A stretch of 64,000 nt of DNA from Thunnus maccoyii (taxonomy: Eukaryota > Chordata > Actinopteri > Scombriformes > Scombridae), in the NCBI RefSeq assembly GCF_910596095.1, contig NC_056535.1, forward strand, positions 5,799,001 through 5,863,000, written 5' to 3'. Within the stretch, counting starts at the first letter, position 1. Every line of letters starts with the position of its first letter. This document shows positions 4,301 through 64,000 of the stretch, in pieces. The notes under the pieces are model-generated. The model was not told the DNA's origin and did no database searches. It worked only from the letters and a program-made list of their open reading frames with translations. Position numbers and translations under genes: made by a program.

Positions 4301-7300
4301 ATATTCAGAATATTCACAGACTAAGTAAATATTATACAGTGTCTTGGACAACAAAAACATTAACTGACAAGGTAGAAAATGTCAGCAGTAGAGCTGAAAC
4401 AATTCTTCATTTGTCGATTGATAGAAAAACAATTTAGATATATTTTATAAAATAATTCATCCAAAAAGTAATCAACAGATTAATGGATAATTTAATTGTT
4501 ACTTGCAGCCCTAGTCAGCAGTGTTATTTTGGGTGTGTGCTGCTGTTTGAAGGGTATATGCTGTTTATGGTCCATATTGTCCATATTTAGTGTGTAATAT
4601 GCACACTTGTGGCTCTTGGGAATTGATGATTACATTCTGCAAACAGGAACTTGTAATAGTCTAACAGGGATAAAAAGAAATCATTTATTAAAGGAAGTGC
4701 TTTTTTTCCAGTTTGTAAAAAAAAAATCTCCTGCAAATGTAATTTTCTTACTCATTATTACTAAGTATTTCAAGTCTGACCTGTCCTGTCTGTGTTTGGT
4801 GGCCAGGGCGCGGTGCAGTTCCTCAATGATGCAGCTAGGGGGCAGCTGAGGGTGTAGTGCCCCAAGGTGGGGGGACCCAGTCGGTGTGGAGATCCTGCCT
4901 CTCAACAGAGAGCCATGAGGGTCTTTGGGAAGTGTGAAGTTCCTGGGTAAGGTGGCTGGGGACTTTTTCACTGGCACTGGAGGAGCACCTGGGAAGGGAA
5001 ATTATGAAAGTGAAACACTTTTGCAAACCAGTGAGGCTCACCATCACTTTTATCCTGCTAAACTCACCTTCAAGGCTGCCCAGTCTGGTGAGCAGTTTGA
5101 CAGGGAGGTTGGGTGGAGGGGGGGTGCTAGCCCGTCTCTGAGGCTGGACCACTGCCACTTCCTGTTTCCCTTCAACGGCCTCCACCTTCCCCATCGACTG
5201 CTCGTCACTAGGGTCGCTCAGTGAGGTGTGGTCGTCTTCTCCGTCTTCACTCTGATTGGGATCTCCCACTGCCTTTGAATCTTCAGTCACATCTTGTGCT
5301 GAAATGCAGCAACAGCAATGGTAATGCAAAGGTTCAGTTTGTTTCTGAGGTCTCTGTCTCCACCTGGTGGACTATCAGAGACATGTTGTTTCAAACTGCA
5401 GCAGATGCCAATAAAACTGCACCAGGAAAGATTTTCATGTAGAAGTTCAGCCATTTATCACCCATTTTATTATTTAAAATCAATCATTTGATTCTAAATT
5501 TGATTAAAAAAAAGTAAAAACTGAACTTAACACCTCTTCATTTACTCTGCCACCACCAGAGAAAAAAATAAGTTTCCAGTTTCCTGACAAGGTTGTGTCC
5601 AAAATGATTTTTTCATTCACTTTTCACTGCACTAACAACAAGACTTACAGCCCTTACAAGACGTTTAGCTGCACACAGTGGTGCAGTTGTGAGCACTGTT
5701 GTATTGAATCTATCAGCTATTTCTGTGCAGAGTTTGCATGTTCTCCACATGTCTGCTTGGGTTTCCTCTCACAGTCCAAAGACATGTAGTTTAGGTGTGA
5801 ATGTGTTAATGGTAGGTTGGTAGGATAAGACCAGCCATCATGAAACTGAACAGGATAAGGAGTTATAGATAATAGATGGATGAATGTTTGGACAACACTA
5901 CAAAATGGCAAACATTTTAAAGTGCATAGTGAATGATTTTGAACACAGTCTGGATTACTTTCAGGTAGTTAAATCTGCATTCATTGATTTTTTTGGTCAT
6001 TTTGGGGCAGCGCAACGAGCTGTAAATACAACATTGAAATATTGTCTCCAAATAAAGTTAAGATGGCTAACATGCTAGCCTATTTACACATCCAGCAGAC
6101 ATGGAGCAACATTAGCATTCATTTGGAGTCGTGTCAGCTGCTAAATGCTCCGCTATGTTCGCCAGCTAGTTGCTAACTTTGTCTGTCTGCCATTGGTGAT
6201 GGGCAGGTAGTGTACAGTGGGTTTTTAGAGGTTTTTCATTAAAAACTGCTGCCTTTTATGGCTGGAAATTAGGTTGATGAGACTGAACCAAAGCTGTTAA
6301 GTTGCTGGCTGTAAAACTAAAGCAATGAGCTAAAAGTTGCTAAAATGCCCTGCAGAGCTGAGGGGAGCTACAGAGTTTAGTCATGATTCTCTGTGGGTCA
6401 CAATGAGTGACCCCTTTCACATTACACATGGTCATTTGACCTATTGTTTATATATAAAATATTGATAAGTGCGGCTTTAAGTTTACCCAGTTACCTTTTT
6501 CTACAGTTAAAATATGTAATTGCATATTGCAGCTTTAACCCTTAAATCTAACATGTTTTGTGTACTCCTACATTTTCTAGCAAGCCACAGTGCTGTATTC
6601 TACCTGTCGAGGCTTCTAAATCACTGCCCAGGTCTTCAGTGGTGCTGGCCAGAGGTGCCATGGGCTCCTCATCTCTGTCCTCACCGTCTGAGTGTGTCGG
6701 GGTGTCTGGATCTTCACTGTTACCCCCACAAGCAAGATCTGACTCTGCATACAGTGCACAGTGGAAGAGGACAGGAATGAGTCACCATAGCATTTGGGCA
6801 TCATGTGGCTAAACAAGTGAACTGTAATCAGCCTGGAGTCGTGTGTGTGTGTGTTTTCATCTCTCATTTTGCACCTGTTTCCGTTTCCCCAGGGCTCCTC
6901 CTGACGAGGTCATCTCTCTTCTGTCGTACAGCTGCCTTCTTCTCCACCGCTAAACAACACAAACATTTATGGAAAAAGGTCCAGTGATAACATGGAAAAT
7001 GAAAATATGTGTAACAGCATAGGTCTATTTTCTGTTCCCTGAGAGACTCCCACACCGCTCATGAATTGATGGAAGCACGAGTCTCTACGTCACACTCACT
7101 TGCCGAGGGCTTCAGCTTCTCGTTTTTCTTTTTCCTCCATTTCCAGGGCTTGAAGATGCGTCCCAGGCTGGCCAGCTTGCTGTTGCGTCTGACGGGAGGC
7201 GTACGGACCCCTGAGACCACGCAACCCGAATGCAGCGTCCTCTGCTGGTCCATCACATCTGTAACACAAACACAGACAGAGCTGCTTTAAAATAGGCCGC

Positions 7301-39121: not shown

Positions 39122-42100
39122 ATGGCAGAAAGGGAAGTGGACGCTAGCCGTGATGCTAGTGAGTCAACACATATAAATGATCATTCAGGCGGTTCAGTGT
39201 CGCCGGAATCTCCTGAAGATGAAGGCTCGGACAGCCCCGCACCAACGTACACTCAGGACCTCCGAAGCGTCCTGGTCACCAGCGTTTTAAACCTGGAGAA
39301 GCTCGACGTAGACTTGTACAGGTAGCTGGCTGAAGTCTATCACTTTACTTTGGCTTAATAATGGTGACAGTTCATGAATTAATTCCCTCAGGTCAGATGC
39401 TGTAAATGTTTTGTTCATCTTTTTGCACAGGTGCTTTTCGAGGGCTAAGTTAAATGTTATTGGAAATATTTGTGTCAGTTAGGTAGCTTGCTATTTTTGG
39501 TTCAACAAAATAAAATTAAAAATTAATAGAAATGAACAAGGCCTTTAAATGTGTGCTTGAATTATATAAAATAAGGCCAGACTCATAAATTAAAGCTATT
39601 GTTAAATTGGCAGCACCTACAAACTGTTTTAGCATATTGTCACACAAGTTTTTGCAAGGAGAAAATGGTAAATTTCTTCTATGAAGTCCACCAAATGATT
39701 CACTGTCCTGCTGCTTTGTCCATTACCAGTGGTGGCAAGTAAGAACATTTACACAACTATACATATTTTCAGGCACTGAACTAGATTATTTCCACTTTAT
39801 ACCAACTAACAGTACTGGCATCTGCACATATTTTTGTAAACAATCTGTTAATAGCAACAAGACTTTTCATATCAGTGCATCCCTCACTATTTTGTCTATT
39901 TGACTGCTGCATGTATGCAAATGATATACTGTTGTGTGTATGTTTGCAAATTATGTACAATAATTCATTGTGCAAACAGCAGCGATTTGCATCTGACACA
40001 TCTAGGCTGGCAAAGTGGTACTCAAAAAATGTGTCCAAGGTTGGCAGGTCTGTAATTACCTGAAAATAAGAATTTTCGTGTTTTCATTTCATTATTGTGT
40101 TATCATTTATCTTAGAATGAGCTCTTTATATCTACATAGGGAGCGGCTCCTCTTCCACGGAGCCCGCCATGTTGCACCGCCATGTTTCTACAGTAACCCA
40201 GGACCGACAAACCAAACACTGGTACTAGAGAGGGCTGTACATGTTTTTTGCAAGTTTCGCGCCCACCGTAGGTTCTCCTACACGCTTGGAAGGGGAGGGG
40301 GAAGGGTATTCAGTTGGTTGCAATATGCAGCCTCACCGCTAGATACCACTAAATCCTGCTGTACAAGCCCCAACATCTACACACTGGTCCCTGAAGCGAC
40401 AGTAGTTCCCTATATTCCTTAGTTGAAATATGTTCCAAAGCGTATCCTAATGTGGAGAGGGGTTGTCAACTGGTCTTAACTGGCCTTGAAGCTATTAACT
40501 CGTAATGTGACTACACTGTAAGAGATGCAGGACAAAATCCAAAGCCTTCCTTGTATGCAAAATTGCATTCCAAAGTTCAGCTGAAGCTAGCATTAGCTGC
40601 TACACTGGACATTTGTGAAGCCCATAATCTTCAGTTTTTGTGCACTGCCACTTATACAAATGATGGTAAGAGAATATCAAAAACACTTGTCATAACATCA
40701 GTGCCATTAACTACTGTCTCAAAAAAAAAACAACTCCCATATTCACTTCATAAAGCTAGACTCCATTGTATGGCTGCAGTATTTGATAGCATTAAATTGG
40801 GTGCAGGGGAATCCAATAAACTCAAACACGCTGACCCTCACTGTCAAAGCTACATGAGCATCATCTAGTGAGACTGCATTACATGTATTTCAGTTGTGTC
40901 TCTATGTTTCTCCAGAGGGACTCACCACTGGGTGCCCCGCAGTCAGCGTTTGTTTGGGGGTCAAATAGTCGGCCAGGCCCTGGTGGCTGCAGCCAAATCT
41001 GTCGACGATAATCTCTATGCACACTCTCTCCACTGCTACTTTGTACGAGCAGGTAAGATGAAGCATGATTTACAGTGTTGGCCAGAGCTAGTGCAACCCA
41101 AATATTAAAAATGAAACTCATTGTTATTGCAATGTAATGATCTTTGTTTGAAGTAATGGAACTAGAGAAAAACAGTAGTTACAGTTATGGTGACCCTTGT
41201 GGTTTTTCTTACAGTTAGCTTTATCAGCTTTTGTGAACTGCATCATGAATACCGAAAAAAAAATCTCAGTTGAAAGAGGAATACACAAATACAGACACTA
41301 TAAACAGTCCATCATCTACCATAATTGGCCAAAGAGTGTCCCAGTTGCTGTTTGCCCACAGCTGTCTTTTGTTTTTATTATTTTTCAGGGGATCCTAAGG
41401 TTCCAGTGCTGTACCAGGTGGACCGCACAAGAGATGGTCGCAGTTTCACGGTACGCTCTGTGAAGGCCATCCAGCATGGAAAACCTATACTGATCTGCCA
41501 AGCGTCCTTCCACATGCTGCAGCCAAGTCCCCTGCAGCACCAGTTCACCATGCCAGTGGTGCCTCAGCCTGAAGACCTCCTCACTGTAGAACAGCTTATC
41601 CAGCTTTATCTCAGGTACAAAAGTACTAACACAACAAGGTATTTGTGTGCTTTGTATACTTAGTGGGTTAGATTAAAGGTTAATACATTGGGGTAACACA
41701 AAAAGAAAGGACCATTACAGAATTTGAAAGTGATTTTGATATTGTTTGTCAGTTCACCTCCATCACACAAATAACATTTTCACAGTTGCCTCTGAGATTC
41801 AAATCATGCTTGGGTAGTTTTGGTTTTATCTGCAGGTGTTTTTTTTTTTTTAGATATCCACATTTTACTTTTCTCCCATCACCCCAATACAATGGAGGTG
41901 AATGGAATTTTGTTTGCTTCACAGTGTTTCTTTCCAGAAATAATGTTCTAGTTGAACAGTGCACTGGAACTTTTTTCTACCAAAGAAATGGGAAAAATTG
42001 CAAAAACACAAGTAGTTAAATAAATGGAAAGATGTAGAATAAGTACAATAACTGTAACATACATACAGAGTGCAGTTTACTACACTGTGTATTTGTCATT

Positions 42101-44059
42101 TAAGATCTTCATTGAGCTACTACAGCACAGCCATGTAGAGACACCAATTTACACATTACTTAAGTGTTTACTAGATAAGAGATTTCTTAAGTTTTAATGG
42201 TGTCACTTGATTTAGTAAATATCTATTTTGAAATTCATGATCTGTATTCCTTTTCATTATTTTACAGTAAACCAGACGTGGAGGAGAATGCAAAACATGG
42301 CCTTAACAAACTGCTGGCTAATGAGGTCCCCATTGAAATAAAGCCAGTCAACCCAGAACAACTTTACAGGCCTGCTGCAACTGAGCCGAAGAAGCTGTTT
42401 TGGGTGCGAGCGCGAGGATATATTGGTAAAATACATTTGATGAAACTTCAGCACATATGTCCACATACTACATTGAATAGCATTTGATGCTACACTGTAT
42501 GATCATAGGATATCCCTGTAAAATGAATAACAAGATTTATAAAAACCTTTTTGCCCTTTCTTGATGTCAAATGAAACAGTATGCTCAAATTGTTAAAGTG
42601 TACCGTATCACTGCTGCAGCTAAAACTCAGATACTGCAAATAACACTATGATATATATATATATATTAGGGGTGTGTCCAAATACAAATACATTATTCGG
42701 CAAAGCACAGATAATGGGTTTTTTACAAATATTTGTTTCATACAAATATTTAGGTCAGTAGTCAGCGCAGTCTTCTATGATCTGGGAGACTCCAATTCAA
42801 GACCCAGTGTGGGGACCTCCTTCATAAGGGAGTTTATTTATGAACACTTATTGTAACACTTTAATTTTCTAAAATTAAAAGAGTAATAAAAACAAAAACA
42901 GGATTTTTAAGCCTCTTTCCACTTTCATTTGAATACAAATGATTTTGCTGCCTCAACAAATACAGATACAAATACAAATACTATATATATATATATATAT
43001 ATATATACAGTCTATAGAAATAGAGCAAATTGGGAGGTTGTAAGCAAACAGTTTCAGTGCCATGCATATATAAAAATATAGCAATATGAAAATAAATGAG
43101 AATGTCAACACAAGTAAAATATGAGATGTATAAGCAAGATTTGATGCATTTTATTTGTGTGTTTGTGTAGGTGAAGGCAACATGAAGCTGCATTGCTGTG
43201 TTGCGGCTTATGTATCCGACTTTGCGTTTCTGGGCACTGCACTGCTGCCTTTTCCCAACTACAAAGCCCAGTTCACTGCCTCACTGGACCACGCCATGTG
43301 GTTCCACAGCACTTTCCGCAGTGATGAGTGGATGTTGTATGAGTGTGAGAGCCCGTGGGCAGGTTAGTATGTCGTTCACTTCCCATCTGCTGTACTTCGA
43401 TTGTTCTCTCTGTCACAGAAAGTACTTACAAAGTAATGGGGGTCACGCATACTGTATGCACATGCAGTTATTTATATAATGTTTTGTTCGCTGATTAATT
43501 CAGCCACAGATGCTTTCACAGTGGTTTGTTGTTCACTGTCATTTTTGATGTAGGCGATTCATCTGGAATTTTGATTAAACATACAATTTTGATCATTTGC
43601 TAGAAAATAACCTTAAGAATATTGAGGATTTTCAATTGTTAGTGTGAATGCATTAATCATGAAATATTAATGACAATGAAAATCTTTTTTCCAATTTACA
43701 AATTGGATTACCCAAATCTCTGTATTTGTGCGATTGGTTTTAACTTTTAAACATATTTTTGTGCCTCTTGACTTTTATTTACTTCATACTGACAGATCTT
43801 TGTATATTTCTGAATATTTTGTGTTTTTCTACACTACTTTTGTGGCTTATCATCTGTGAGCCATTTCAAAGCTTGGACACAAATGACACTTTGGTGCATC
43901 CTGTTTTAACCTAACATGTTGTGTTTATTGTGTCTTACAGGGAGCAGTAGGGGACTGGTTCAAGGGCGACTGTGGAGAAGAGACGGGGTGCTGGCTGCCT
44001 CGTGTTCCCAGGAGGGCGTCCTGAGAGTGAAACCAGTCCCAGAGCCCAGCAAACTATAG
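39122..44059 (+). CDS. acot8: acot8, peroxisomal acyl-CoA thioesterase 8 (complete, six exons)
   Basis: ACOT8 hydrolyses acyl-CoA esters to free acid and CoA in peroxisomes, and acts in bile-acid and dicarboxylic/branched fatty acid metabolism. Exons: 39122-39321, 40916-41052, 41389-41614, 42268-42425, 43171-43362, 43941-44059, all GT-AG and phase-consistent, giving 343 residues (human about 319, the excess being at the N-terminus). Family motifs are LRSVLVTSVLNLE, RLFGGQIVGQALVAAAKSV, HSLHCYFVRAGD, VRSVKAIQHGKPI, NEVPIEIKPVNP, FWVRARGYIGEG, SLDHAMWFH and ECESPWAG. Together these give the two hotdog domains of the TesB/ACOT8 family. Asp280 (SLDH), Ser301 (ESP) and Gln328 (SQEG) match the family's catalytic positions by motif. 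The protein ends Ser-Lys-Leu, a canonical type 1 peroxisomal targeting signal. Two in-frame ATGs lie at 39116 and 39122. The second has the better context (aacATGg) and was chosen. Confidence 0.96.
40135..40400. repeat. Dispersed repeat in acot8 intron 1
   Basis: Text such as ggagcggctcctcttccacg, gccatgtttctacagtaacc, ccaaacactggtactagaga, ctcctacacgcttggaaggg and ctacacactggtccct belongs to a repeat I recognise as common in perch-like fish genomes. It has an open frame of 135 codons by chance and no gene features. Confidence 0.55.
42981..43007. repeat. (TA)n microsatellite
   Basis: About 26 bp of TA repeats in acot8 intron 4. A shorter one lies at about 42650-42667. Confidence 0.9.
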
Positions 44060-44207
44060 GCACATTCCTAAGCTCTTTCTAAGATGTATCATGTGTATAC
44101 TCTAATCATAGAGATAATATTTAATTTTAAGACACAAAAATAGTAATATAACATGAGTTCATGATTGTTTTATTATGAACATGCAAACTTCTAATTTATT
44201 TCCTGAC

Positions 44208-44213
44208 AATAAA
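44208..44213 (+). terminator. acot8 poly(A) signal
   Basis: AATAAA about 150 bp after the acot8 stop codon, with no better candidate between them. An aaataaatg follows 15 bp later. Confidence 0.6.
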
Positions 44214-46576
44214 TAATACAGCGGAAATAAATGTTGTCATTTGTTTTGTCATTTGTTAGATGAGATGTGCATATACGTTCCTCATAGCCACTAATTACAC
44301 AAAATGGTTTCAACTACTTTGCATACAACTACTTCATTCATGATAATTTTTTAAATCTAATAATGATAAAACCAATTACACTGCAAAAACTCATTTTATA
44401 GTGCCACAGTTTTAACATGCCACCTATCATCATGGTGAAATAAGAAAATATGAAGTTTGTTTTATTTTTAGAAAGCCATCACACAAATGCAATGTCAAAA
44501 TTGACAGTAGTAGTATTAGTAGTAGTAGGCTAACAGCAAAAAGACATGACTAAAAAGCCATGCACTGTAAAATGGAATTGTAAATGTCTTGAGTTCCACA
44601 AAATAGAAACAAAGATGGCATAAAATGTGTATGACTGTCTAGCACATGCAACTGCTAAGACATGTCACAAGGGGTTTTCTCAATGTGAGGTACAGAGCTG
44701 CCTGTTAAAAAGGAATAAAGCAGACGAATGAAATACAGAGCAGGACAGCCAGAGAATGGAACAGCCTGATCCACCAGCGGAAAATGGAGTAATTGTAACC
44801 ATTTTACAGCAGGACAGCCTGATCCACTAGGAGGGAATGAAATAAGTAATATATTAAATTTTTGGAGCAGATCAGGATGAAAATGTACAGATAGATCTAC
44901 CTGCAACATTAACCATAGCTATACTCTTTGCCACTGCAGCTGCGGGGGAGGGCTGGCATGTAAAAGAGTAGTTTAGAAAAAAAGAAAAGTGCATAATTTC
45001 CACTGGGCTCAACTAACTTCAGTTTTTTCCCCTCAAAGTTAATCATCTGAATCAGATATGATGAATATGATAATTCACGTTTTTTTTTTTCCAAGTTCCA
45101 ATGAGTGACACCAGTGCTCATGTGACATGTCCTACCTCACAGTGTGGTTATTGGACATCTGTTGCCATTGTTTACCTTTTGGGAATCATTATTGTAAAGA
45201 TGGAAAATGTGCACAACCAACTAGCCTGAATCTGACATTCAAGTATGTTCTGCCTGGCATCAGGTAGAAAAAAAGCTTTTATACTGTGAAAAAGATTTGT
45301 GTTAATCCCATTAGTAACATTGATTAAAGAAAAGATCAAACGTGAGGTCACAATGTATTAAGCTTGCAGTCAAAATTAACAAAGTGCTTGATGTTTAAAT
45401 TTGGAAGTGTCCACTGAGGGCAGAGTGGGGAGTTCAATGAAGGGAAAGATGACTGCCTGACCTGATTGGCCCAATGTGTGTGTGATTTTTGCAATTTGAC
45501 CATTGTTTGACATAACCAGAAACCATGATGACAGCATCAGTTGTCAACAGTCTTGCAACAGTTTTACTGTTGCAAGACATGTCACAGAGGACCAAGCCAA
45601 CACCGGTTTCAGCCATTGATTTGGCTTCCTGTACTCTTTAGTAAAACAAAGAGTTTTTGGTAGGTGTCATCTTTGTCTTAATGAGTTACAAATGGAGAGT
45701 GTGCAAAACAAGGAACACTGACTGAAAAGTAAGACAAAATCCAAATTTTGCTAAATTGGGAGATGTCTTCTGGCTTTTCAGCAATTTGGAATATATTAGT
45801 TAACATTACTTAAATCTAAAGCAAAGCTAGATTTAAGGAAACAATGTTGGTATTACTGCTTTAAAGAAGAATAAGAAGCATATTTTCATTCGAACAGTTA
45901 GAGAATCAGCTTTTCTAAGAGGGAGAGTCGCAAGTTCTCTGCATCTAAAATATCTCATTTAATAATAAAACATCAAACATTGTACAGTAAATCTAGAAAA
46001 TGAGGCATCAGGTTTTGTCTCATAAGCACACAAAACTATATGTTGGTTTTCTGGTTCCTACATTTTAGCAAAGTTAAATCTTTAAAAGTTCCTTAAAGGC
46101 TAAAGTTGCAGAAATTACTATGGTTGCTGTACATGGGGGAAAAAAACGCTAATACACACAAATTAAAGCAAGACATGCTGTCTAATCCCTAATTAAGTGT
46201 TTTTTAATCCTGGTCCACAGGGCACAGAGTGCTGCTGATTGTCCAGGTGTTAAAGAACATTCACCTTACATGCCCAATTTAAATGATCTCTTACTGCAAA
46301 GCTATAATGATAAGCAACAGGGTTCCATGTGTAGAGGATCTGGACTGAAAACAATTGCTGTCTTTAATCACAGACTCCTTTATCCCCTCCAAAACTTGAC
46401 AGAGCTCGACAGTAGTCACCAGTCTGTAGATAAAGTTAAGGCACTAAAAAAACCCTATAGATAAAGAGGTCCAGCCTGTAATGGTTTCATAGGTTGTTAA
46501 TGCTAGTTCGGAGTCCTCTTCTTTCTTAAATCCTTTGTCTCTAAATTAAATTTGAATCTACCTATCTTCTTTGAAG
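44214..46576. other. Intergenic stretch without recognised gene
   Basis: AT-rich sequence with no supported exon. A small internal duplication of cagcctgatccac occurs near 44760 and 44815. The expected first (RRM1) exon of the srsf6-like relic was looked for here and not found. Confidence 0.6.
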
Positions 46577-47245
46577 GTAGCAGCTACAGCAGGAATCACT
46601 CTGGCAGGGACAAGTACAGGCCATTTATACACACTGAACACTGCCCCACTGTGGAGAACCTGTCCAGCAGGTGCAGCTGGCAAGACTGTAATGTGAGAGA
46701 TGATGTATGGCCTTCATGATTTATCAGCATACAGACTCCAAACCAACACGTTCCAGTGGTTTTAAACAAGTGAACATCTAAGTAAACAGTGTAGGAATTG
46801 TTTCCCAAATGAAATATCTACTAGTCGCCCTGCAACGTGCAACATGACAGTGATCCTAAACATACAGCCGAAGCAACCAAGGAGTTCTGCAGCAGCAAAA
46901 AGTAAAGTATTCTTGGTCAAATCAGTCAACAGATGTGAATACAACTAATCATGTGTTTCTTCATAGGATTTTATGCAGAATCTGGGTGGCACTGATGTTA
47001 ATGGAAGGAAGATTTGTGTGGTAGAAGACAAACATTGGCAACATTGCTCTTATTCTGGGAGCTGATCCAGCTAGATGTGGCTGAAATGTTCATACCCTTA
47101 TGTTACCTACTTGTGTACATTGTGTGTGCATTTGCTCTTACATTTAAGGTTATGTTTAACCCACAGGTCTTGCAGCAGGCAGCGCTCTCGCAGCTGCAGC
47201 AGAAGTAGGACTTCTCGCAGCCGTTCCAGGTCTTGCTCACCGTAA
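46577..47245 (+). pseudogene. srsf6-like splicing factor gene relic
   Basis: SRSF4/5/6 proteins have two RNA-recognition motifs and an Arg/Ser-rich tail. Three exon relics remain in the right order, each with a splice site. At 46577-46692 the frame reads [18 protein letters not shown] then [13 protein letters not shown], matching the family's SGRDKYGPP...[14 protein letters not shown] linker and start of RRM2, and is followed by GTGAGA. From 46967 after a TTCATAG acceptor, DFMQ is followed directly by GGTDVNGRKICVVEDK. This is the start and end of the RRM2 core, with about 35 residues deleted, then stops. At 47167-47245 after CACAG, the frame gives SCSRQRSRSCSRSRT and SRSRSRSCSP before TAA, the RS tail. 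RRM1 is missing. Because introns remain, it is not a processed copy but a decayed gene. Human SRSF6 lies close to IFT52 and MYBL2, so srsf6 fits best. Confidence 0.82.
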
Positions 47246-49012
47246 CCTTCTCTCACCACTTATTCATATGCATATTCATTCATATCTTACCCCTCAAATG
47301 ACATTTCAACTGCTTCCATCTCTTATGCTTTAGATGACAATTCAACTGCTTCCAGTTCTAACACGCCAAACTGACATTTCAGCTGTTTTTGTCTCCTACT
47401 CTTCGAGTCACATTTCAGTGTGTTTCAATGCTTACACTTGATATATCTGTCTAGTACAAGACTGTTTGTGTGATACAGCAATCTGGCGTCTGGAAACCAG
47501 AGCCAGTCAGAGATGATGCTCATTTGTACATAACAACAGTTTGGCAGACAGATCAGGAGCATATTCACATGAATATTGAGTGTTGTGTGTAGGTGTTTCA
47601 GTTTGCCATTGCACCACACTGAAGGAGAGATCTTTCAATTGAACCTGCCTCAGTAGCCCTGTTTTATGTGTGTTTAGGCACAGTGATAAATGAATGACTT
47701 CTAGCAATGTTTTTGCATTCATTTACCATAAATTACATAGAGCATATTTTACATATTTGTCCTAATACTAAAACCCCCCAAAACTTGATATTGTCCTTTA
47801 ACAGAGTATGAAGTAGGGATTTTGCCACATGATGGTTGTAAAATAAAGAGACTGGTCTGGCTAGACACGATAACAGGGGTCCCCCCCCCGTATTAAACAT
47901 GGAATCAAAACCAATAGTTAAGCTAACTTTTATTGTTGCCTGTTACATAAAACCATTAAATTAAATATGTATTTTGCTCCAAATCACTCCAGGACTCCCA
48001 CAGATTCAAAGCTTATGAGAAGTGTTTGGACAGCTAATCAAATGAAACATGATCTTTTAACTGGTACATCTCCACAAGGGGCACTGAATGGGGAATTTGA
48101 ATGATTCAGCATGCCCAGAGCTGGACAGGGGGCCTGGAAGATGCCAGGGATTATAGAGTTTCACAGCTCTGACAAAGCTATTTTCAGGGGGGACAGAACT
48201 TCTAATAACTACTTTGGAAGGTTAGCCTTGTACACAAGAAGGTTTGATCATTAAATTGTTTGCAACATAATTGAAAGGGATGGAAAACAGAAACAATCAA
48301 TATCTTGGGCCAAAGAGGGCTTCAATTGGGGTCGTAGATTATGGCCTAATTTTCACTTTTTGTTAAGGACTCTGGTTACTTGGATTTAAAAGGGCATTTT
48401 TGGTGACACCGGTTTAAGTTTGAGTCCCTTTACACCTTAAAATACGTTTCGTATCCAGATTGTATCAAGATATGATATAACCTGATTACATTTACACCTG
48501 GTATTAATATGTGTCTCCAGTGTCCACATTGAGATCCGATTAAGATGTGATTGCTCTGTCCAGCTCAAACAATCAAATGTCACATCCTCCTCATCCCTTC
48601 ACCAGGGCAAAACACGGGACGATCACCCAGCACTCCATCCAGCTCATTAAAAAAGGCACAAGTCACCCTGCCCCTGCCACTTTTGTTATTGTTGTCCCTT
48701 GTTTTTTCCCTGTACGACTTTTGGGACCACCTCCTTCACCACCTCCTGTAGGCCAAGCAGTTTGGAGCTGTGAGACAATTGCTGCTGCTCTGTCAGGCTG
48801 CTGGCGTACTGATTAGCCTGGCTGATGATCTTGGGATGTCTGTAGGTTACAGTCATTCAACATTTGTTTTAAAAACACTTCAGAACACCACAGAGACATC
48901 ACAACCATTGTACTGTAACTGGTAATAAATTTGTGTCAAATAAGACACACTAATACTGAGGAGGGATGGTCTGTGTAGAGTTGAGGAGCCTTCTGGCTTC
49001 ATACTCAACATC
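47246..49012. other. Intergenic stretch without recognised gene
   Basis: No supported exon. A C9 run lies at about 47881-47889. The segment 48430-48560 has transposon-like text (ctttacaccttaaaa and ttacatttacacctggta), but no matching opposite end was found. Confidence 0.5.
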
Positions 49013-49642
49013 TCACATCTTCATGCTGGTGTTCACCTCAAACACCTGAAATAAGGAATGAGACATGATGATCAGATTTGACGTATTTAACTCAAAACTA
49101 CTACTGTGAATTCTTTCCAGGATTCTGGTCTTACCAGCCTGAGAAAAGGCTCGACATCAGAGTCAAAATCCTCTAGTTCAAACTCCCAGAGCCTTCAAAC
49201 AGAAAGAAAACACAAGCTTCATCATTACTGTTCCTCTCTTCCTCATAAGAGACAGATTGGTGAGACAGGAGCAGAGTTCAGGTCAAGTGTACTGCTGGAC
49301 TGTGTGTATGTGTGCATGTGTGTGTCTGTGTCAGTAACTCACTTCACTCTCAGTGTGCTCTTGCTCTCCTCTACCAGCAGGTCACTCATGTCTTCAGCAG
49401 TCACAGCAGATGGGAGCTGTTTTCTCTGCTGAAGTCTCAACAGTTCAGCCACCAGTGCAATCTAAAGACCATACAAGAGATCACATGTCTTCATGCTGAA
49501 GTTCAAGACACAATTTATGAGATTTTACCCGGTCTTTTATATTAGTGTGGTCATTATATTGGGTCTTACCTGACAATTATAAGAGCCGGTATGCCAGACA
49601 ACTTGCTGACCCCCGCTCATATATGGGTGTGTCAAACAACAC
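49013..49642 (-). CDS. Unidentified minus-strand gene, four 3' exons (5' part not resolved)
   Basis: Four putative exons join in frame with good GT-AG borders: 49642-49570, 49461-49343, 49192-49135, and 49045-49013 ending in TGA. Pieces of the product are YMSGGQQVVWHTGSYNC, IALVAELLRLQQRKQLPSAV, EDMSDLLVEESKSTLRVKLW, EFELEDFDSDVEPFLRLV and the C-terminus FEVNTSMKM. I do not recognise the family. A possible further exon lies at about 49738-49810 on the same strand, but its frame is ambiguous: an alternative frame reads IPWGFIEGSGGMYRSIR there and then hits a stop in the next exon. The gene is head-to-head with ift52, and an X-box lies between them, which hints at a cilium-linked role (inference). 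Decay into a pseudogene cannot be excluded. Confidence 0.5.
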
Positions 49643-50345
49643 CTGTGTAGAAAATAAGATAATATTGCTCATATAGTTTGTTATTCAGAGTTTTAACTAC
49701 ATCTGAAAATGTTCCAGTAAAAAAAACTCTCATATACCCTGATGGATCTGTACATTCCTCCGCTCCCTTCAATGAACCCCCAGGGTATTTTGTTACTGCC
49801 GTACATCTCGAAACGCAACAAGCTTGACTTTCAACACAACAATTTTATCTTCAACAACAGACATTTACATATTAAATTTGAAACCCCAACAATAACACCA
49901 CTCTTTCAAATGATCATGACAGGGTTTAAATCCATAGATTAGCTACTTTCTTCAAGAAACACAGTTGGTGGATGTATATTGGCATAAAATAATACTTTTG
50001 AAGACATCTTACAGTCAGCAAACAGTGTGCCTGTTGAGACTGTGAGATGTGGTTGAAAGATCTCTCAAAAAAAGCTAGGAGGTGGTCCTTGAGTTAAGTT
50101 TTTGTTGTTGTTTTGTCAAATCATGCAGCATTTTTTTTATTTGTATCGCGCTTACTCCCAAATTTAATAATTTAGCCATTACAAGTCTGTTGAAATGTGT
50201 TTGGTAAATTTTTCCCATGAATACGGTGAGATTATCTTGAAAGCAGAAAAAAGCATGCTAGTGGATTTTGTTTACCCCATGGATATATTATGTTTAGGGT
50301 TATTTTATATTTTACCCCACTGCTGCGTCACTCGGTTGCTATGCG

Positions 50346-50359
50346 GTTACCATGGTCAC
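50346..50359. promoter_or_regulatory. RFX X-box in the ift52 upstream region
   Basis: GTTACCATGGTCAC matches the X-box consensus GTTRCCATGGYAAC at 13 of 14 positions. An extra half-site GTTGCT lies 6 bp upstream, and ggcaacgc follows about 40 bp downstream. RFX factors drive intraflagellar transport genes, and the site sits 528 bp before the ift52 start codon, between ift52 and the minus-strand gene. Confidence 0.65.
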
Positions 50360-50887
50360 CACTCTCCCCCATAATGCATCACTGTTAGGAGAGCCTGGCA
50401 ACGCTGATCTGTGAATGTACAATAATAACGTAGTGTCACAGGTGGGAATTTATGTTATAGGCGAACAGTTAATAGAGAACAGAAACATTAATGTCAAGCA
50501 TCGGACACTAACGTGAGGTAATGGGACCCAGCTATTAGCTACGTGGCTAACAATAACGTCACATTCTGAATAACTTATAGCTAGCTCCTTAGCTATATTT
50601 GCTAACGGTATTCTAACGTACGACGATGGATGCTTAACTTGTTACTTAAGTGACCAACTAGTACAACGTTTCCAAGTTAATACTGGCTACGTATAGACTG
50701 GAATTTCAGTTACAAGCAGTGAATTGCCATGCTAAAATAATCCACAACTAGCTAAAATAGTAATAATGTGCTAAAAGACACCTCATAGCTAATCAAATAG
50801 GATCTAACGTTAACTAGGAGTTAAACCCTGTTTGTAGGTGTACGGATGCTTCTAAAAGCCAACTGCAGTGAGTGAACCTAATAAAGA

Positions 50888-53629
50888 ATGGAGAAGGAAC
50901 AGCACAACACTGTGGTCTTCAATGCTTCAAAAAGAGAGCTGTTTACCACGAACAATGGATACAAATCCATGCAGAAGAGACTCCGGGCTCAATGGAAAAT
51001 CCAAAGGTAATGTGTTTGTGGTGTAACACTGACCTGTCTGCGCTTTGTCTAGAGCTACTACTATATTTTTCATTATTTCGTAGCAATATTGAGAGATACC
51101 TCAGATGCTAAATAAATGCTGCCTCTTCTAGTATGAAGGATGAGCTGTCTATGGAGAAGCTGAAGGGTGTCAAGTTGTGGATAACTGCGGGCCCAAGGGA
51201 GAAGTTTACAGCATCAGAGGTAGTGTATCAAAAGCTATCATTTTACATCACCAAATTCATAAATAGCATTGTATGTATGCTTAAACTATGATCTGTTTAT
51301 TTCCATTTAACAGCTCTTGGCATAGGAGGGGGTAGAAATAGCAAGCTTGCCAGTCACTATGTGCTTTGTTGCCTTTAAATTCTGCATTCAGGTTCTCACA
51401 CAAGCATGTTTCCACACTTTTGTCCCATTTGATTTCAGCTGGAGGTACTGAAGCACTACCTGGACAGTGGAGGAAATGTGCTTGTCATGCTCGGTGAAGG
51501 AGGGGAAATGAAATATGACACCAATATCAACTTTCTCCTGGAGGAGTTTGGAATAATGGTTAACAATGGTGCGTAGTGAAATCTGTGCAAATGACACTTC
51601 ACATCATTTATGTAATTGTTGTGTATTGAAGTTTTAAAGAATCATATGTTCTCCATCAACACTACAGATGCAGTTGTGAGGAATGTGTACTACAAGTACT
51701 TCCATCCAAAGGAGGCGCTTGTGTCTAATGGTGTATTAAACCGGTTGGTTTGTTACAGTATCTATTGTATTTCTCTCACACATAATTTATTTATGGTTTT
51801 GTTGTATATATATAAATATTTATTCATTTCAACTGTAGTTGTATTGGATTACCACTCTAAAATGAATTATCCTACACACTGATGAACATTAAAGCCAACA
51901 TGATCTGCCTCTTTTTTGTTTAGAGAGATAAGTCGCGCTGCTGGCAAAGTGATCACAGGAATAACTGAAGATGAAAATGTTGGAAACAATGCACAGTAAA
52001 TGATTTGGTTTTATATTCCTATTTACTACATTGACCGCTACATTTAGTGTTTTTGGAGGGGTTTTGAATGCAAAATTTTCTGTCTTTATTTGTGCAGGGC
52101 TCTCACATTTGTGTACCCATATGGTGCCACACTGAGTGTGATGAAACCTGCTGTTGCTGTTCTTTCAACTGGCTCAGTCTGCTTCCCCCTCAACAGGCCT
52201 GTCCTGGCTTTCTATCAAGGAAAGGTCAGAGGCACAAGATGGTTTTTTTCATACTTATTCTTAGGCAACAATACCTGTGCATGTATACTTGTAAGGTGAT
52301 GTTGAAAGATGTCTCATGTCTTATTAAGGAGGCTGGAAAACTGGTAGTTCTGGGTTCCTGCCACATGTTCAGTGACCAATACATAGACAAAGAGGAGAAC
52401 AGTAAAATCATGGTGAGTACAGCTGACATATAAAAATGTTTAAAAAGTATACTCTGCTATCTTGTGGAATTTGAAGTGGAGTATTTGTGCTCAACACTCT
52501 GTTGTACTTTTTCATTCCAGGATGTTGTGCTCCAGTGGCTCATGACTGATAATATTCAGTTGAATCAGATTGATGCAGAAGACCCAGAGGTGAGGACGTT
52601 TACTTCACAGGAGAATGGCATCATTGATATTGTCTTTTAAATTAGCTGACATCCATCTTGTCCCTTTTTTTTTTTGTCTCCTAGATCACAGATTACACCA
52701 TGTTGCCAGACACAGGGTGCCTGTCAGAACATCTCAGAGTGTGCTTACAAGAGGGTGATGAAAACCCCAAGGACTTCACCTCTCTCTTTGACATGTCTTT
52801 GTTCAATTTGTCAACCGATACTTTACCCCAAGTCATCAGGTGAGAATGCAAAATATACCCGAGAACATTATCTGCACATCACTGCTCTTGTTTTTCTTCA
52901 TAGCTTAAAAAAAATTATTTGCTGTAATGTTTTCTGCAGTGCTTACAAGCAGCTTAATGTCAAAGACGAGCCGCTTCAGCTGATCACACCACAGTTTGAG
53001 ACCCCTCTGCCTCAGCTCCAACCTGCTGTAAGTCCAGCGTTTTTCCATGCATACATTTCTAGAGTCATATGTAACCGCAATGTTATGGGAACAAACATTT
53101 TTGCTTTTATCTCCACAAATTTAAATCCACAAGTGTGGGCTTTCCTGTCTTTTAGGTCTTTCCACCTGCCTTAAGTGATTTGCCTCCACCCATGCTGGAC
53201 CTGTTTGATCTAGATGAAACATTCTCCTCTGAGAAAGTGCGCCTAGCTCAGCTCACAAATAAATGTAAGATCACTACTGTTCTTAGCAAAATTAAGTGGT
53301 TAGGTTTAGACCCTTGATAAGGCACAATTTATATTTTTTTAAACCGCTTCTGCTCCCAGGTACAGATGATGATCTTGAGTTCTATGTACGGAAATGTGGG
53401 GAAATTCTGGGGGTGACTCCCAAGTTGGATAAAGATCAGAGGGATGCCAAGCACATCTTGGAGCACATTTTCTTCCAGGTTGTGGAGTTCAAGAAACTCA
53501 ATCAGGTGAGAGAACTTAGCTCTCCTACAAGTAAGTTTATTATGCATTTAAGGCCTTGTCTAATAACAAATTCCCCTCTTGCAGGAGCATGATATCGATA
53601 CTGAGGCACAGTTCACTCCGGGTCACTGA
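50888..53629 (+). CDS. ift52: ift52, intraflagellar transport protein 52 (complete, 13 exons)
   Basis: IFT52 is a core subunit of the IFT-B complex that carries cargo along cilia. Exons: 50888-51006, 51132-51219, 51439-51568, 51668-51743, 51924-51995, 52098-52224, 52329-52412, 52521-52589, 52685-52839, 52940-53027, 53156-53264, 53360-53505, 53585-53629. All borders are GT-AG, phases join, and the product is 435 residues (human 437). Recognised stretches include LFTTNNGYKSMQKRLRAQWK, VKLWITAGPREKFTA, MLGEGGEMKYDTNINFLLEE, VVRNVYYKYFHPKEALVSNG, VMKPAVAVLSTGSVCFPLNR, LGSCHMFSDQYIDKEENSKI, LNQIDAEDPEITDY, LFDLDETFSSEKVRLAQLTN, LEFYVRKCGEILGVTPKLDK and AKHILEHIFFQVVEFKKLNQ. The N-terminal half is the GIFT domain and the C-terminal part binds IFT partners. 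The start ATG (agaATGg) matches the MEKE start of the family and has good context. Confidence 0.97.
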
Positions 53630-55825: not shown

Positions 55826-58800
55826 ATGTCCTGGTGGCCGCGCGGGTAAGATGCTGATATTTATTATCTGAATGAACTAGCATTAGCAGTACTGTTTTGA
55901 CCACTAACAGATTAAATGTGAGCACAGTTAAAACGTTCAGTTGAATAACGTACATTACATTTACATTTTGGCCTAACCCTGTAACTTTTGAGAACTTCAC
56001 GGTCTCTCGTCTGTGCCGCCCTTTTCCAGACAGTCACAATTAACTGGGTTCAGTATTTGATTTCACTCCAGACACTCTTTCTATTCATTCACGTCAACCA
56101 TTTATTTACTCCAACTCTGTACTAACATCTTAACTGTGCTACATAGTAGTGTATGGCTATGAGATAGCAGCTAACCATACAGCTAAACCTGATTATCCAG
56201 TTGTCCTCTGCACACTACAAGGGCGGGCCAGTAGAGTTTCTGCATTCATTGTCAGCTTTATTGGAGCTTTTTTGTTTCTCAGTGAGGATGGAGAGGAGGC
56301 CATGCATCAAGACACTGACTCTGATGTGGCAGAACAGAGAGACGGTGGGAAAGTGAAGGTGAAATGGACACAAGAAGAGGTGATTGTCATGACTTGTCCC
56401 AGTGATTTGCATGTCCTCTGGTCTGAATGCCTCCTGACACAGTCAAAGAAATCACTACTCTCTGGGAGACAGAATGTAAACATGTTTATTTGTTTGCTTA
56501 CAGGATGACAAGCTCAAGGCTTTGGTTCAAAAAGTGGGGCAGAATGATTGGAAATATATTGCCAGCTTCATACCAGTAAGTTTGATTAACTTTTCTGTTG
56601 TTTTTAGTAAGCTGTAAGGGCCTCATTGGTTATTTGTTGACAGCAGAAATCTCATCAGTGTTTTGAAGTTTCTTCAATTGTTTTGTTTTGCTTAGAATCA
56701 CACTGAACATCAGTGTCAGCACCGCTGGTTTAAGGTCCTGGATCCAGAACTGGTTAAAGGTCCTTGGACCAAAGAGGAAGATGAGAAGGTAGGCGACTCG
56801 TTAGCTAGCAATGAAAAGGGTTTGAAATTTGACTTATTAAGTACAGTATATCTAGTGTTATTAGTGAAAACAAGTTGTATTTCACATGCAAGCTAAATTT
56901 CCTCCTCATTCCTCAGGTTATAGAGCTTGTACATCTCTATGGCAACAAACAGTGGGCTGTGGTAGCCAAACATCTGAAGGGCAGGCTGGGGAAGCAGTGT
57001 AGAGAGCGCTGGCACAACCACCTCAATCCCAATGTGAAGAAGTCGTCATGGACAGCCGAAGAAGACCTCATCATCTACAAGGCTCACTGCCTGCTCGGAA
57101 ACCGATGGGCTGAGATTGCAAAGCTGCTCCCTGGGAGGTAAATACACAACGGTCAACTCATAGGATGAGTTTGATATTGTCAACATGTTTTTGTGTGTGT
57201 ATGTAATTAAAGCCTTGCCTCCTCCAAAAGATTCATGTTATAATATTTATTCACAGGACGGATAATGCAGTGAAGAATCACTGGAATTCGACCATCAAAC
57301 GCAAGTTAGAGATGGGCTTCTATGCCGGGGAGGTCTTTAAGCCAAATGAACTGGAAGAGCTGTTGGCCCGTGTTAACAAAGATATGCAGGTGGGTTATCC
57401 TACCCATGATGTTCTCCTCTAAGATGGATACACTATTGACTGTATGATAAAATTTCTCTTTTCTCATGACACAGATGCCCAGTTGCTCTCAAGATGGTGC
57501 AGACAAGGACCCAGAGCAGAAAACACAACCTTCAGTAAGTGACCAATCACATCGATTTAAAAAAAAAAAAAATCACGATTTAAAAACAGGGTGGTTTTAA
57601 ATACTTTAAAGGTATACTATGCAGGATTTGTTGGTTGGTGTTTGTACACACAGCATTCAAAGTTGGCTCCTCCTCCCCGGGTGTGAGAGAGAGAGAGCAA
57701 CGGTGGTTGAGCGAGCTAGAGAGTAAATGAAGAGAGCGAGCGACCCTGGCCTGAACAAAGCTGTGAATCAGATAAATAAAACGTCATTTTCTGATTGTTT
57801 CACACACCTCCACACAACCCTGCGGGAAAGTACCGCATTGCTGGATTTGGTGTGAATGCAGAGCTTCATCCTATCCACTGTGGTCTCTGCTCTGTGTGTG
57901 TGTGTGTGTGTGTGTGTGTATAGCTCACACACTTCTAGTGGGCCATGAGTGATGATTAAGAGAGATTGCTTTTGTCTGAGTCTTAGTTAGTGTTTTTTAG
58001 GAAATTCCTGCATAGTATTTTAATCTCTGTCAACTGATTTGTTATAAATAAAGTCCACAGAAAGATTATCTGTATTGCACAACAGTAATGATGTTTTCAA
58101 TGTCAGTTAGTTATAGATGTCTTCTTTTTCCACCAGTTGCAGGAAACGCCAGTCTCAGCCTGTGTTAAAGCCAGCCCCAGCAAGCCAGGTCCTTCACAGT
58201 CTGTCCCCTCTCCAAAGGACAGTTTAAGCCCCAAGACTGAAGCAGACACCTCAGGAGAAATGAACGGTACCAACTGGGTGGTGGACAGCTCCGGCTTTCT
58301 CTCCCCCACTGGCCCAGCACTGAAGGAAGTACTGGACATGGTGGATGGGGTAAGTGTCCCCAATAGCCAACAAGACATTCAAGAGTGTATCCAGTAGCTG
58401 GTACCCCCACCTTATTTTGATGTAGTTTTAGGCAAATTTTAGTCATTTGATTTTTGTTTGTTTTAGTCAACAGAAGACTCTTTACATTTCGTCAGGTGAC
58501 ATTGTAGTCTCATCTTTGTTTTGCCTCATTCATCTTTATGTCTGTCCATTTCCCATCATTTCTGTATTGATTTACCTTGAGAGGAGAAGCTACAATGTCT
58601 GATAGCCTTCGATATTTCTTCAACAAACATCTAGAGGAAGATTTAGATTGTTGACTGCTGATAATAATCCTGGAATTTACTCATTATTTCTGATAGTAAC
58701 AGGCAAGATAGTTGTTTGAAAATAATGTTAACGTTACACTCTGAACAAGAGATAGTTTTAGCAGCAGAGGACACTGTTACATTTTGTCATAGTTCTTGTT

Positions 58801-61703
58801 TTCAGAGGCTACTTACTTGGCTTTAGTCTCATTTTTGTCACCAACAGATATTTTTTGCTTTCGTTAATCATTTGTGCTGTTTTTCATATTGATACATTAT
58901 TGTACTTTTGAGTAATACTTGTGACTTATTGTGAATAATAAGCCTCTAATGACTAGTTAGTATTGATTTCAATAATATGTATATTTTTAGTTGATCTTTT
59001 ATGACCCTTTTTCGAGAAGTGACCAGATATATAACAATTTACTATTATCATTGTTATTATTATTTTATTTTTTCACACCGGATATATAACTGACAAATAA
59101 AGTGTTTCTTATGTACTCAGGACATCGATGGCTGGTGCAACCTGGCAGCCTTCGACCTGCCTGAAGACAGCCCGAGCCCAGAACGCCACCAGTTCCGTCT
59201 GGAAGGTAGCGCCTTGCAGGAGTTAAGCAAAGGTAGCAAGGGAGAACTCATCCCCATCTCTCCTGGAGGGGTCACACCGCCCTCCATACTGAACCGCCGC
59301 AGCCAGAGACGCATCGCCTGGTCTCCTGATGCCAATACCTTAATGACTCCCAAGAGCACCCCTGTCAAAATCTTGCCCTTTTCTCCATCTCAAGTGAGTC
59401 TTCTTAGTTAATTCTGTAGCACTGACTATGGCACTGCTCACAATGTTATAATGAAGAAGGAGTAACTTTAACTAACAAGCATTGTTTCAGTTCCTCAACA
59501 TGTGGACCAAGCAGGACAGTCACGACCTGGAGAACCCGTCCCTCACGTCCACGCCGGTGTGTAGCCAGAAAGCCATTGTTACAACACCTCTACAGCGAGA
59601 CAAGACCCCACTCACTCAGAAGGAAAACTCAGCGTAAGTAGTCCTTTACTCAGATCCGATGGTTAGCGTACAATCGGTATCACCTTGAGTCTCATTGTTC
59701 ACATTTTGTTTTCATGCAGATTCGTCACACCCAACCACAAGTCGGAGCTCTGTACGACACCACGAACTCCCACGCCGTTCAAAAATGCCATGGAGAAATA
59801 CGGACCTCTGCAACCTCTGGTGAGTATCTGTCTCTTGACTGTCAATAAAAAGCAATGAGTTATCAGCATTAACAGTGTCTTCTGATGTGTCGTCACAGCC
59901 TCAGACTCCTAACCTTGAAGACGACATAAACGAGGTCATCCTGAGAGAAGCCGGGATTGACTTGGTTGTTGTACGCACAACTCCACCTGAGCAAAGACGC
60001 AAAACAATGGTAACTATGAAACTTTAATACTTATAATACTTAATAACTATTCCTTTAACCCCCGTTAAAGGTATACTTTACCATTTAGACATATTACATA
60101 TTAGATCATAGAGAGCCAAAGTAAACAGCAAAGTAAAATAGTTCTTTATTTAATATTTCTGTTTTGGTGGCCTTTAATTAACACCATGGAAGGAAGAAGA
60201 ACAATATACACATATTAAACATAGAGCATTTGCTGTGTAAAATAGCACCTCTTCTTTTTTCCCTTACCTTTTTATTACTTTAGAATAGACTACGGGTGGA
60301 TATCATCAATAAGGGAGAAACAGTTACAGCAATGTATAACCTGCACACTGTCAACATGAGAAAACTTAATGGCAGCTCTAGTTTTTTGAATGCTAACAAA
60401 TAAATTGCAGTTTAATCCCAAAAGATTTTATTCTGATAGCAAATACTGTAATAGATACTGATTTATCTTATATAGTATAGATAGTAAACCTCAGGAACAA
60501 CACTCTGACCTCTGAAAGCAACCCTGAATGAGACATTGTACTGAACTACAAAAGCTAGCGTTATAGCAGCTAGCTCAGATGTGAAGTCAGGGTTCAGACT
60601 CTATAATGATACAAGCTAATGTTTTTAGCACGGTGTAATTTTAGTGTATGGTGTTGGCATATAAAAAAGAGCAGGCAAAATGTTCTTAGATGTGTAAATG
60701 ATAGTTTGTGCTTGTAATCATGTGCTAGTTGCAACTTGAGCATATGTCTGTTAAACTAATACTGCAGGTTGTCAGTAGAAGGTGTGTCTCAGAAAGTTAG
60801 ACTGCTTGGGAACATTGAGTACTTGAGCTCCCCACTGCTTCACGCTCACAACTTCACACCTTGTAGCGAGGCATTACAACAACAGTCTTCTGTTGGTCAG
60901 TAGGCAGCTGCGTGAGAGCAACTGAGTGTGAAATCTCTTGTTCATTCACTTCCCCCATCCAGATATTTAAAGTCTACCACTGTTCCCACCATTCAACAAT
61001 GCTTTTGGCTGATGTTTTAGCTTCCACTCTAGAACCCCTAGCACAGACAGACAGAAATTGTACTTGACTGACAATCTTTCTGAACCTATTTACTCACATC
61101 CTGATGGTTTTTGTTGTTTTTATTCCTAGCATCGCCCTCCTATGAAGAAAGTGCGGAAGTCATTGGCCCTAGATGTCGTGGATTGCCAGGTGATGCCTAC
61201 ATCCAAACGCAAATCCAAGACTGAGGCCAAACACAGCATCAAGGTAAAGAGTGTGTAAATGTGCTGTTAATCTGTCTGTAGTTTTTACACATAATAATTC
61301 TCTGCTCTTTTTCCTTCTTTTTTTGCTCACAGGAAGAACCTGTGATGGTTTCTCTGAACTCCTCGTCATTTTACAGTAAGGGGCATGAAAATATTTTGGA
61401 TCAGGGCTTCCTTTTGGGACCTAGTGACAGTGCCATATTTCCCAGCACGGTGCCCCCAACTCCTGTAAGTTCCACTTTTATAACCCTAAAAGGAATTATC
61501 CTCATCAATGGAGTATGAGTATTTCACATAGCTCTTCTTTGACCTAATTCTATTGTGATGTTTTTTCTCTTCAGATGTCAAAAGAATGGGAGACGGTTGT
61601 GTGTGGACAAACTAAAGACCAGCTCATAATGACAGAGAAAGCAAGACGCTACCTTCGCTCGCTAAAATCACACACTCCCAACAGAGCTCTGATTTTGTCC
61701 TGA
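55826..61703 (+). CDS. mybl2: mybl2 (B-Myb) transcription factor (complete, 15 exons)
   Basis: B-Myb activates late cell-cycle genes with the MuvB complex. Exons: 55826-55845, 56283-56379, 56504-56575, 56696-56788, 56917-57137, 57257-57389, 57475-57534, 58137-58349, 59121-59393, 59491-59633, 59720-59819, 59899-60009, 61130-61243, 61333-61464, 61575-61703. Phases join, giving 636 residues (human 700). The N-terminus has [13 protein letters not shown] as in B-Myb. Three Myb repeats span about residues 33-188: R1 with WTQEEDDKL, R2 with [15 protein letters not shown] and [18 protein letters not shown]3 with SSWTAEEDL and [18 protein letters not shown]. The C-terminal half keeps B-Myb marks: [26 protein letters not shown]-like [62 protein letters not shown] and [13 protein letters not shown]. 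Many SP/TP sites fit cyclin-A/CDK2 control. The first coding exon is only 20 bp; its ATG is in good context and joins in phase. Confidence 0.96.
57606..58023. mobile_element. MITE in mybl2 intron 7
   Basis: ATACTATGCAGGATTT at 57614 and aaattcctgcatagtat at 58002-58018 are inverted copies. TTAA flanks both ends (57606-57609 and 58020-58023), fitting a TTAA target duplication as in piggyBac/Kolobok-type elements. A GT microsatellite lies inside at about 57893-57919. A related end (ttaaaggtatacttt) occurs in intron 12 at about 60065. Confidence 0.7.
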
Positions 61704-63403: not shown

Positions 63404-64000
63404 ATGGACCGGTCTAGTAAGTGAATTACTAAATTAACAGTGAATACAATGTTATTTTTCTGTTTGTTTTATGCGTTATACATCGTGTATGCTATTAGGG
63501 AGTTCCCTGTTGTAGAATTTAGGGAAAGAAATTCATGCAGTGTGCTGCTTCCTACTGACGTTAGCAAGCTTGCCTCCTAGCTAATGAACGAGCCAGCGCT
63601 AACTCGATGAATGAATAAAACGTTATATCATCAGGAAAGAGATAGTGTGGTGTAAAAATATATTTTGTTGTTTTCAACCCACTGTGGTAAACACGATTCA
63701 GCCAGCTAGCGGCTCATCTTGTCTCCGTTGTACGTTATGTCCGCAGGGCTGCTCGGGTTGTTCATCCTCAGCCTGGCTCTCTCTGGAGCTCAGGCGCTCA
63801 CACCCGCTCACTACCTCTCCCTGTCCGATGTGGCCCGACTGCAGAGCCTCCTTAGCCAGCAATTCACTGACCTGGAGTCTGCATACTATTCGGTTGTTGG
63901 TCTGACCAAGCTTGGAGCGACTGTTCCCGATCATAAGGTAAAAAAAAATAAAAAAAAATGACTCGGTTATACGTGGTTATGCTGCGACAAGACTGAACAT
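63404..64000 (+). CDS. rpn2: rpn2, ribophorin II, oligosaccharyltransferase subunit (5' two exons; runs off window)
   Basis: RPN2 is an ER-membrane subunit of the oligosaccharyltransferase that N-glycosylates nascent proteins. Exon 1 (63404-63416, only 13 nt: MDRS plus one base) joins in phase to exon 2 (63747-63937), which ends at AAG before GTAAAA. Exon 2 gives a hydrophobic signal peptide GLFILSLALSGAQA, then LTPAHYLSLSDVARLQSLL and FTDLESAYYSVVGLTKLGA. These align well with the mature N-terminus of ribophorin II (LTPTHYL..., NLESAFYSIVGLSSLGA...). An unspliced alternative start exists at 63739 (MSAGLLGLF), in frame with exon 2. The remaining exons lie to the right. Position 63938 onward is intron. 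Confidence 0.9.

Follow-up and report, generated by a model that had tools for sequence, protein, structure and literature searches.

The DNA between acot8 and ift52 on contig C3 of Thunnus maccoyii very probably holds a dead, intron-bearing ohnologue of srsf6, a type of locus whose class is already known. Remnants of srsf6 exons 3, 4, and 5 follow one another in order on the + strand at 46577–47241 of the window, i.e., of the whole stretch of 64,000 nucleotides that was analyzed (C3:5799001–5863000). The genome searched for related copies comprised 782 Mb in 54 contigs, and an intact srsf6 of six exons, open throughout, was found on the minus strand of contig C4 (C4:12028.0–12032.1 kb). An earlier note on this DNA had described three decayed but ordered remnants and had expected a sister copy to have survived elsewhere; both were found. 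The fossil is nevertheless larger than this simple reading suggests and is probably younger.

Anatomy of the srsf6 fossil

With the intact C4 srsf6 as reference, the remnant formerly read as a linker plus the start of RRM2 corresponds to exon 3, and that read as an RRM2 exon with an internal deletion to exon 4 (Table 1), from which 99 nt, i.e., 33 codons, have been lost in frame. What had been called an RS tail is indeed the remnant of an RS exon, which its place identifies more precisely as exon 5, although fossil exon 5, owing to the low complexity of RS sequence, also shows a partial match to exon 6. Exon 3 retains an acceptor (TTTGAAG), a frame without stop and a donor read as GTGAGA, while an alternative alignment yields a 5-nt deletion and the donor GTAATG. 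Exon 4 keeps its acceptor, carries a TGA near its end at an arginine codon of C4 srsf6, and has lost its donor through a change of GT to CT. Exon 5 has an open frame, and both its acceptor (CAG) and its donor (GTAACC) are kept. The splice sites are still recognizable, as the note had stated, in five cases out of six (all three acceptors and two donors, that of exon 4 being lost). Each of the three exons differs in length from its counterpart in C4 srsf6 by a multiple of three, a regularity not required of a gene long dead; the differences in exons 3 and 5 fall in linker and RS stretches that also vary in length between srsf6 and srsf4.

Table 1. Features of the srsf6 fossil and of its neighborhood (positions are those of the window).
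Feature	Position	Strand	Description
acot8	40923–44059	+	upstream neighbor; 4HBT_3 in Pfam; exon places mapped
Relic of the srsf6 intron-2 conserved element	45372–45550	+	putative poison-exon region; branch-point-like ATTAAC kept
Fossil exon 3	46577–46692	+	linker and start of RRM2; 116 nt vs. 119 in C4 srsf6
Interspersed-repeat fragment	46840–46892	+	in fossil intron 3; two other genomic matches, on C13 and C17
Fossil exon 4	46967–47070	+	RRM2; 104 nt vs. 203 in C4 srsf6
Fossil exon 5	47167–47241	+	first RS exon; 75 nt vs. 87 in C4 srsf6
ift52	50888–53538	+	downstream neighbor of the fossil
mybl2	56501–59408	+	coding pieces detected; paralogue on C4
rpn2 (start)	63710–63958	+	just 3′ of mybl2, at the window end; Ribophorin_II in Pfam, E 1.7e-8

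Similarity searches confirmed that the exon remnants are more than chance resemblance. Indeed, tblastn against a small set gave an E-value of 3.8e-9 for exon 3 and of 1.6e-5 for the exon 4/5 stretch, the genome-wide search with human SRSF6 recovered exon 3 (C3:5845576–5845689, E 8.5e-6) among its 38 matches, and phmmer aligned the joined peptide of exons 3 and 4 with human SRSF6 at E 1.1e-16. In Pfam, RRM was recognized in none of three queries with fossil peptides, the one weak match being unrelated (E 0.18).

Neither tblastn nor blastn detected exon 1, exon 2 or a separate exon 6 in 43301–51000, where only chance-level matches were obtained and where the RS-stretch matches fell on fossil exon 5; when an RRM1 exon, a promoter and exon 6 were sought near the fossil, the best E-values were 0.15 for RRM1 and 0.41 in blastn. 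The promoter and exons 1 and 2 should lie within the ∼1.3 kb that remain between the stop of acot8 at 44059 and the intron-2 element at 45372. In C4 srsf6, exon 1 and the element are ∼1.6 kb apart, which exceeds this space; hence, the 5′ end of the fossil was probably deleted. A working srsf6 would have two RRMs and an RS domain. Here, RRM1 exons were undetected in the searches above and RRM2 is broken, so that the locus appears to be a remnant rather than a working member of the family. Retained introns, homologous intron sequence and disabling lesions are those of an intron-bearing pseudogene.

The repeat fragment in intron 3 is 83 and 92% identical to its two other genomic matches, over 53 and 38 bases, and presumably belongs to a Tc1-type transposase, of which one frame appears to carry a motif. 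Just 3′ of exon 5, at the place expected for exon 6, positions 47281–47352 hold two tandem 36-nt copies that are 81% alike.

A relic of the intron-2 element

When the C4 gene was compared with the window by blastn, the top match fell in intron 2 and in no exon (4507–4707 of the C4 gene against 45370–45536, E 3e-15). This element extends the fossil beyond exons 3 to 5 and was missed by the first reading. It shares 144 of 178 aligned bases (81%) with intron 2 of C4 srsf6, with nine gaps. Its local score was 176.6, compared with 51.8 ± 7.6 (maximum 82.7) for 200 dinucleotide shuffles and with 65.7 for the best other place in the window among those tried on both strands. The intron-2 elements of C4 srsf6 and C15 srsf4 are themselves similar (190 of 242 bases; score 109.3, maximum of 47.9 in 100 mononucleotide shuffles), and the fossil element matches that of srsf4 weakly (44.6 against a shuffle maximum of 40.9).

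Lareau and Brenner (PMC4379411) report that human SRSF4 and SRSF6 carry homologous poison cassette exons in their second introns, and that the exon of SRSF6 is present from fish to mammals. Based on that account and on the homology between srsf6 and srsf4 in intron 2, we take the element, by position and homology, to correspond to the poison-exon region known from vertebrate SRSF6 and SRSF4. The likeness to that exon lies in the intron-2 position and in the homology of the intact srsf6 element with that of srsf4, whereas the present element is a putative exon, its host is dead and its aligned part stops before the candidate donor. In the intact C4 srsf6, all 10 acceptor/donor pairs tried as candidate exon limits led to an in-frame stop a short distance past exon 2. 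The similarity of the fossil to C4 ends at 45550, before the GGTGAGGAT stretch common to srsf6 and srsf4, which may hold the candidate donor of the poison exon. Directly after this loss of similarity, positions 45551–45577 consist of two perfectly matching inverted arms of 11 bp that flank TTTTA, a repeat that might mark an insertion.

Assignment to srsf6

In the genome-wide search with human SRSF6, the best matches were two multi-exon srsf4/6-type genes, located on C4 and C15. The protein of the C4 gene reads like SRSF6. The C15 gene carries what we take to be SRSF4-type residues, by comparison with the human sequence, and genes on C16 and C17 are presumably srsf5-like. In a ranking covering the loci on C4, C15, C16, and C17, a comparison that the earlier note had proposed, the fossil exon-3 and exon-4 peptides matched C4 srsf6 best (50.8 and 37.0 bits), then C15 srsf4 (43.1 and 29.3 bits) and then the srsf5-like genes (at best 32.3 and 24.3 bits). 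An origin from srsf4 or srsf5 was ruled out by this ranking among the loci compared. At 12 residues that differ between srsf6 and srsf4, the fossil is srsf6-like in seven cases, srsf4-like in two and like neither in three. Neither exon 4 alone (48.5 for srsf6 vs. 47 for srsf4) nor exon 5 alone (35 vs. 37) separates the two genes. The assignment to srsf6 over srsf4 and srsf5 is supported by best similarity. Genome-wide DNA searches revealed no link between the fossil and the C4 copy, as expected at such divergence. Besides, the fossil resembles the intact C4 gene in exon order, exon-intron boundaries, intron-2 element, RRM2 and RS sequence and in the presence of mybl2 in the block, and differs from it by the lack of detectable exons 1, 2, and 6 and by the exon-4 deletion, stop and lost donor.

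Paralogous blocks on C3 and C4

As the earlier note had it, the fossil stands beside ift52 and mybl2, both 3′ of it, and thereby adjoins these genes as SRSF6 does in the human order SRSF6-L3MBTL1-SGK2-IFT52-MYBL2. The name of acot8 and its C-terminal exon at 43910–44059 are putative assignments made from lists of open reading frames, and the mybl2 pieces beyond 57419 were presumptively assigned by position. Down the minus strand of C4, the order is srsf6-l3mbtl1-sgk2-mybl2, in agreement with the human order except that ift52 is missing; an intact srsf6 near a paralogous mybl2 region is what had been anticipated.

None of 12 ift52 exon peptides from the window matched C4:11986001–12016000 at E < 0.1 (best 0.12), and an ift52 fossil was not found in this interval. 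Genome-wide, the ift52 matches listed are confined to C3, with no second copy among them (50 of 75 candidates scored), and those listed for acot8 and rpn2 are also confined to C3 (60 of 60 candidates scored). C3 retains ift52 and mybl2. Human probes for l3mbtl1 and sgk2 gave no match in the window at E ≤ 0.1, while probes for IFT52, Myb and SRSF6 served as positive controls, and 3 l3mbtl1 and 10 sgk2 exon peptides from C4 gave nothing below E 0.8 in 47242–50887.

The DNA-binding parts of the two mybl2 copies share 72% amino acid identity over 75 residues. Outside the mybl2 exons, the blocks share one match of 28 bases at blastn E ≤ 0.01, just upstream of mybl2, and 47242–50887 has only two matches of 17–20 bases (E 0.026). 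Such deep divergence of mybl2, together with the near absence of non-coding matches, indicates that the duplication is old, while the reciprocal losses fit a whole-genome duplication. Paralogous blocks with shared genes and reciprocal losses are what marks ohnologues, and we infer that the event was the teleost whole-genome duplication. Reciprocal loss between paralogous blocks is also found in pseudogenized ohnologues of this duplication. Many losses of that kind are traceless, as are those of l3mbtl1 and sgk2 here, whereas the srsf6 fossil can be read exon by exon.

Constraint, release and probable date of death

Over 72 codons, the fossil and C4 srsf6 differ at 21, 12, and 38 sites at codon positions 1, 2, and 3, respectively, a pattern indicating prolonged protein constraint on the pair. 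Branch tests, in which srsf4 served as the outgroup, were run on 51 codons, after removal of the 10 at the start of exon 3 and the 12 at the end of exon 4, where the srsf4 alignment was unsafe. Under these conditions, Ka was 0.189 on the fossil branch (95% interval 0.095–0.30), 0.027 on that of C4 (−0.016 to 0.08) and 0.080 on that of C15, and the C4 value equaled or exceeded that of the fossil in a bootstrap share of 0.0025. Second positions changed only in the fossil at 7 of 49 sites and only in C4 at 0 of 42; the corresponding counts were 9/43 and 6/40 for first positions and 11/21 and 10/20 for third positions. Fossil-only changes are thus uneven over codon positions, with third-position change about equal to that of the sister. 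This unevenness is explained by silent change that mostly predates death, and the excess lies at amino-acid-changing sites, as would be seen had constraint been lifted late. The changes of the fossil would be a mix of a constrained past and decay.

Dating relied on three assumed neutral rates (2.5, 4, and 8e-9 per site per year). The coding branch then gave 75, 47, and 24 My (bootstrap interval 12–120 My over all), and the intron-2 element, with 34 differences in 178 or ∼0.22 per site, gave 88, 55, and 28 My. Since part of the change predates death, these dates are upper estimates. At the assumed rates, the C3 srsf6 probably died tens of millions of years ago. The teleost duplication took place ∼300 My ago, and a death long after it fits better than an early one, because the other non-coding DNA of the block is almost wholly unalignable.

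Proposed history and alternative explanations

The teleost whole-genome duplication would have left srsf6-l3mbtl1-sgk2-ift52-mybl2 on both C3 and C4. Later, ift52 would have been lost from C4, and l3mbtl1 and sgk2 from C3, with no trace found. The C3 srsf6 would have remained long under purifying selection and would only later have lost the 5′ end with the promoter and exons 1 and 2, a part of exon 4 together with its donor, and exon 6, leaving exons 3 to 5 and the intron-2 poison-exon region, all of them now drifting and presumably without function.

A real dead copy might instead descend from a segmental duplication of srsf6 that was local or took place later, given that one genome was compared and that the age of the duplication was measured only indirectly. 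However, mybl2 is present in both blocks, the losses are reciprocal, the mybl2 copies are deeply different and the remainder of the blocks is almost devoid of blastn matches, which makes such an origin very unlikely. We give slightly less credence still to exons belonging to a transcribed locus, producing a non-coding RNA or a truncated protein, with the poison-exon region perhaps acting in trans on the sister. The open frames of exons 3 and 5, the five recognizable splice sites, the 81% identity of the element and the exon-length differences in multiples of three would suit such a locus, but neither an RRM1 exon nor a start was found in 43301–51000, RRM2 lacks 33 codons, exon 4 has a stop and no donor, and second positions changed in the fossil and not in the sister.

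Derivation from a processed retrocopy or from another SR gene (srsf4 or srsf5) has hardly any probability. Exons 4 and 5 alone fail to discriminate srsf6 from srsf4, yet the overall ranking and the diagnostic residues favor srsf6, the fossil lies beside ift52 and mybl2, and exon-flanking splice sites are preserved along with the intron-2 element. The preserved intron-2 sequence is a strong argument against a retrocopy, which was rejected on this ground, in line with the earlier proposal of a dead intron-bearing gene.

Significance of the fossil

The dead srsf6 ohnologue on C3 would be a case of ordinary gene loss after genome duplication that is unusually readable. Of many duplicates that disappeared after the genome duplication of fishes, nothing readable remains. 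Here, exons, splice sites and a regulatory element are still recognizable, so that related fishes can be used to establish when, and in which order, the losses occurred. In the literature, we found no work on srsf6a/srsf6b or on SRSF6 duplicates after the zebrafish/teleost genome duplication, and nothing on unitary pseudogenes of teleost splicing factors; in PMC3012610 we found nothing bearing on an srsf6 fossil.

The conservation of poison exons becomes testable at such a locus, through the decay of the element relative to the coding exons once the host gene is dead. As judged from the alignments, the drift of the poison-exon relic (∼0.22 changes per site) seems to have been close to that of the coding exons (0.19, with a wide interval). 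It is conceivable, though on balance doubtful, that after the death of its host the element drifted at roughly the rate of coding sites once under constraint, which would constitute a natural experiment on ultraconserved poison exons. If so, the extreme conservation of the element would serve the autoregulation of its own gene only, with no separate enhancer or trans role.

Other features of the window

Over the whole window, Rfam gave no match at gathering scores and ARAGORN no tRNA gene. Several coding-looking open reading frames lie on the − strand at 3368–7286, two of which were tested and had no Pfam match; they may resemble a PHACTR-type protein. A decayed transposase fragment, presumably Tc1-like, occupies 2086–2364 on the − strand, with a weak match to DDE_3 in Pfam (E 0.0033, below the curated cut-off).
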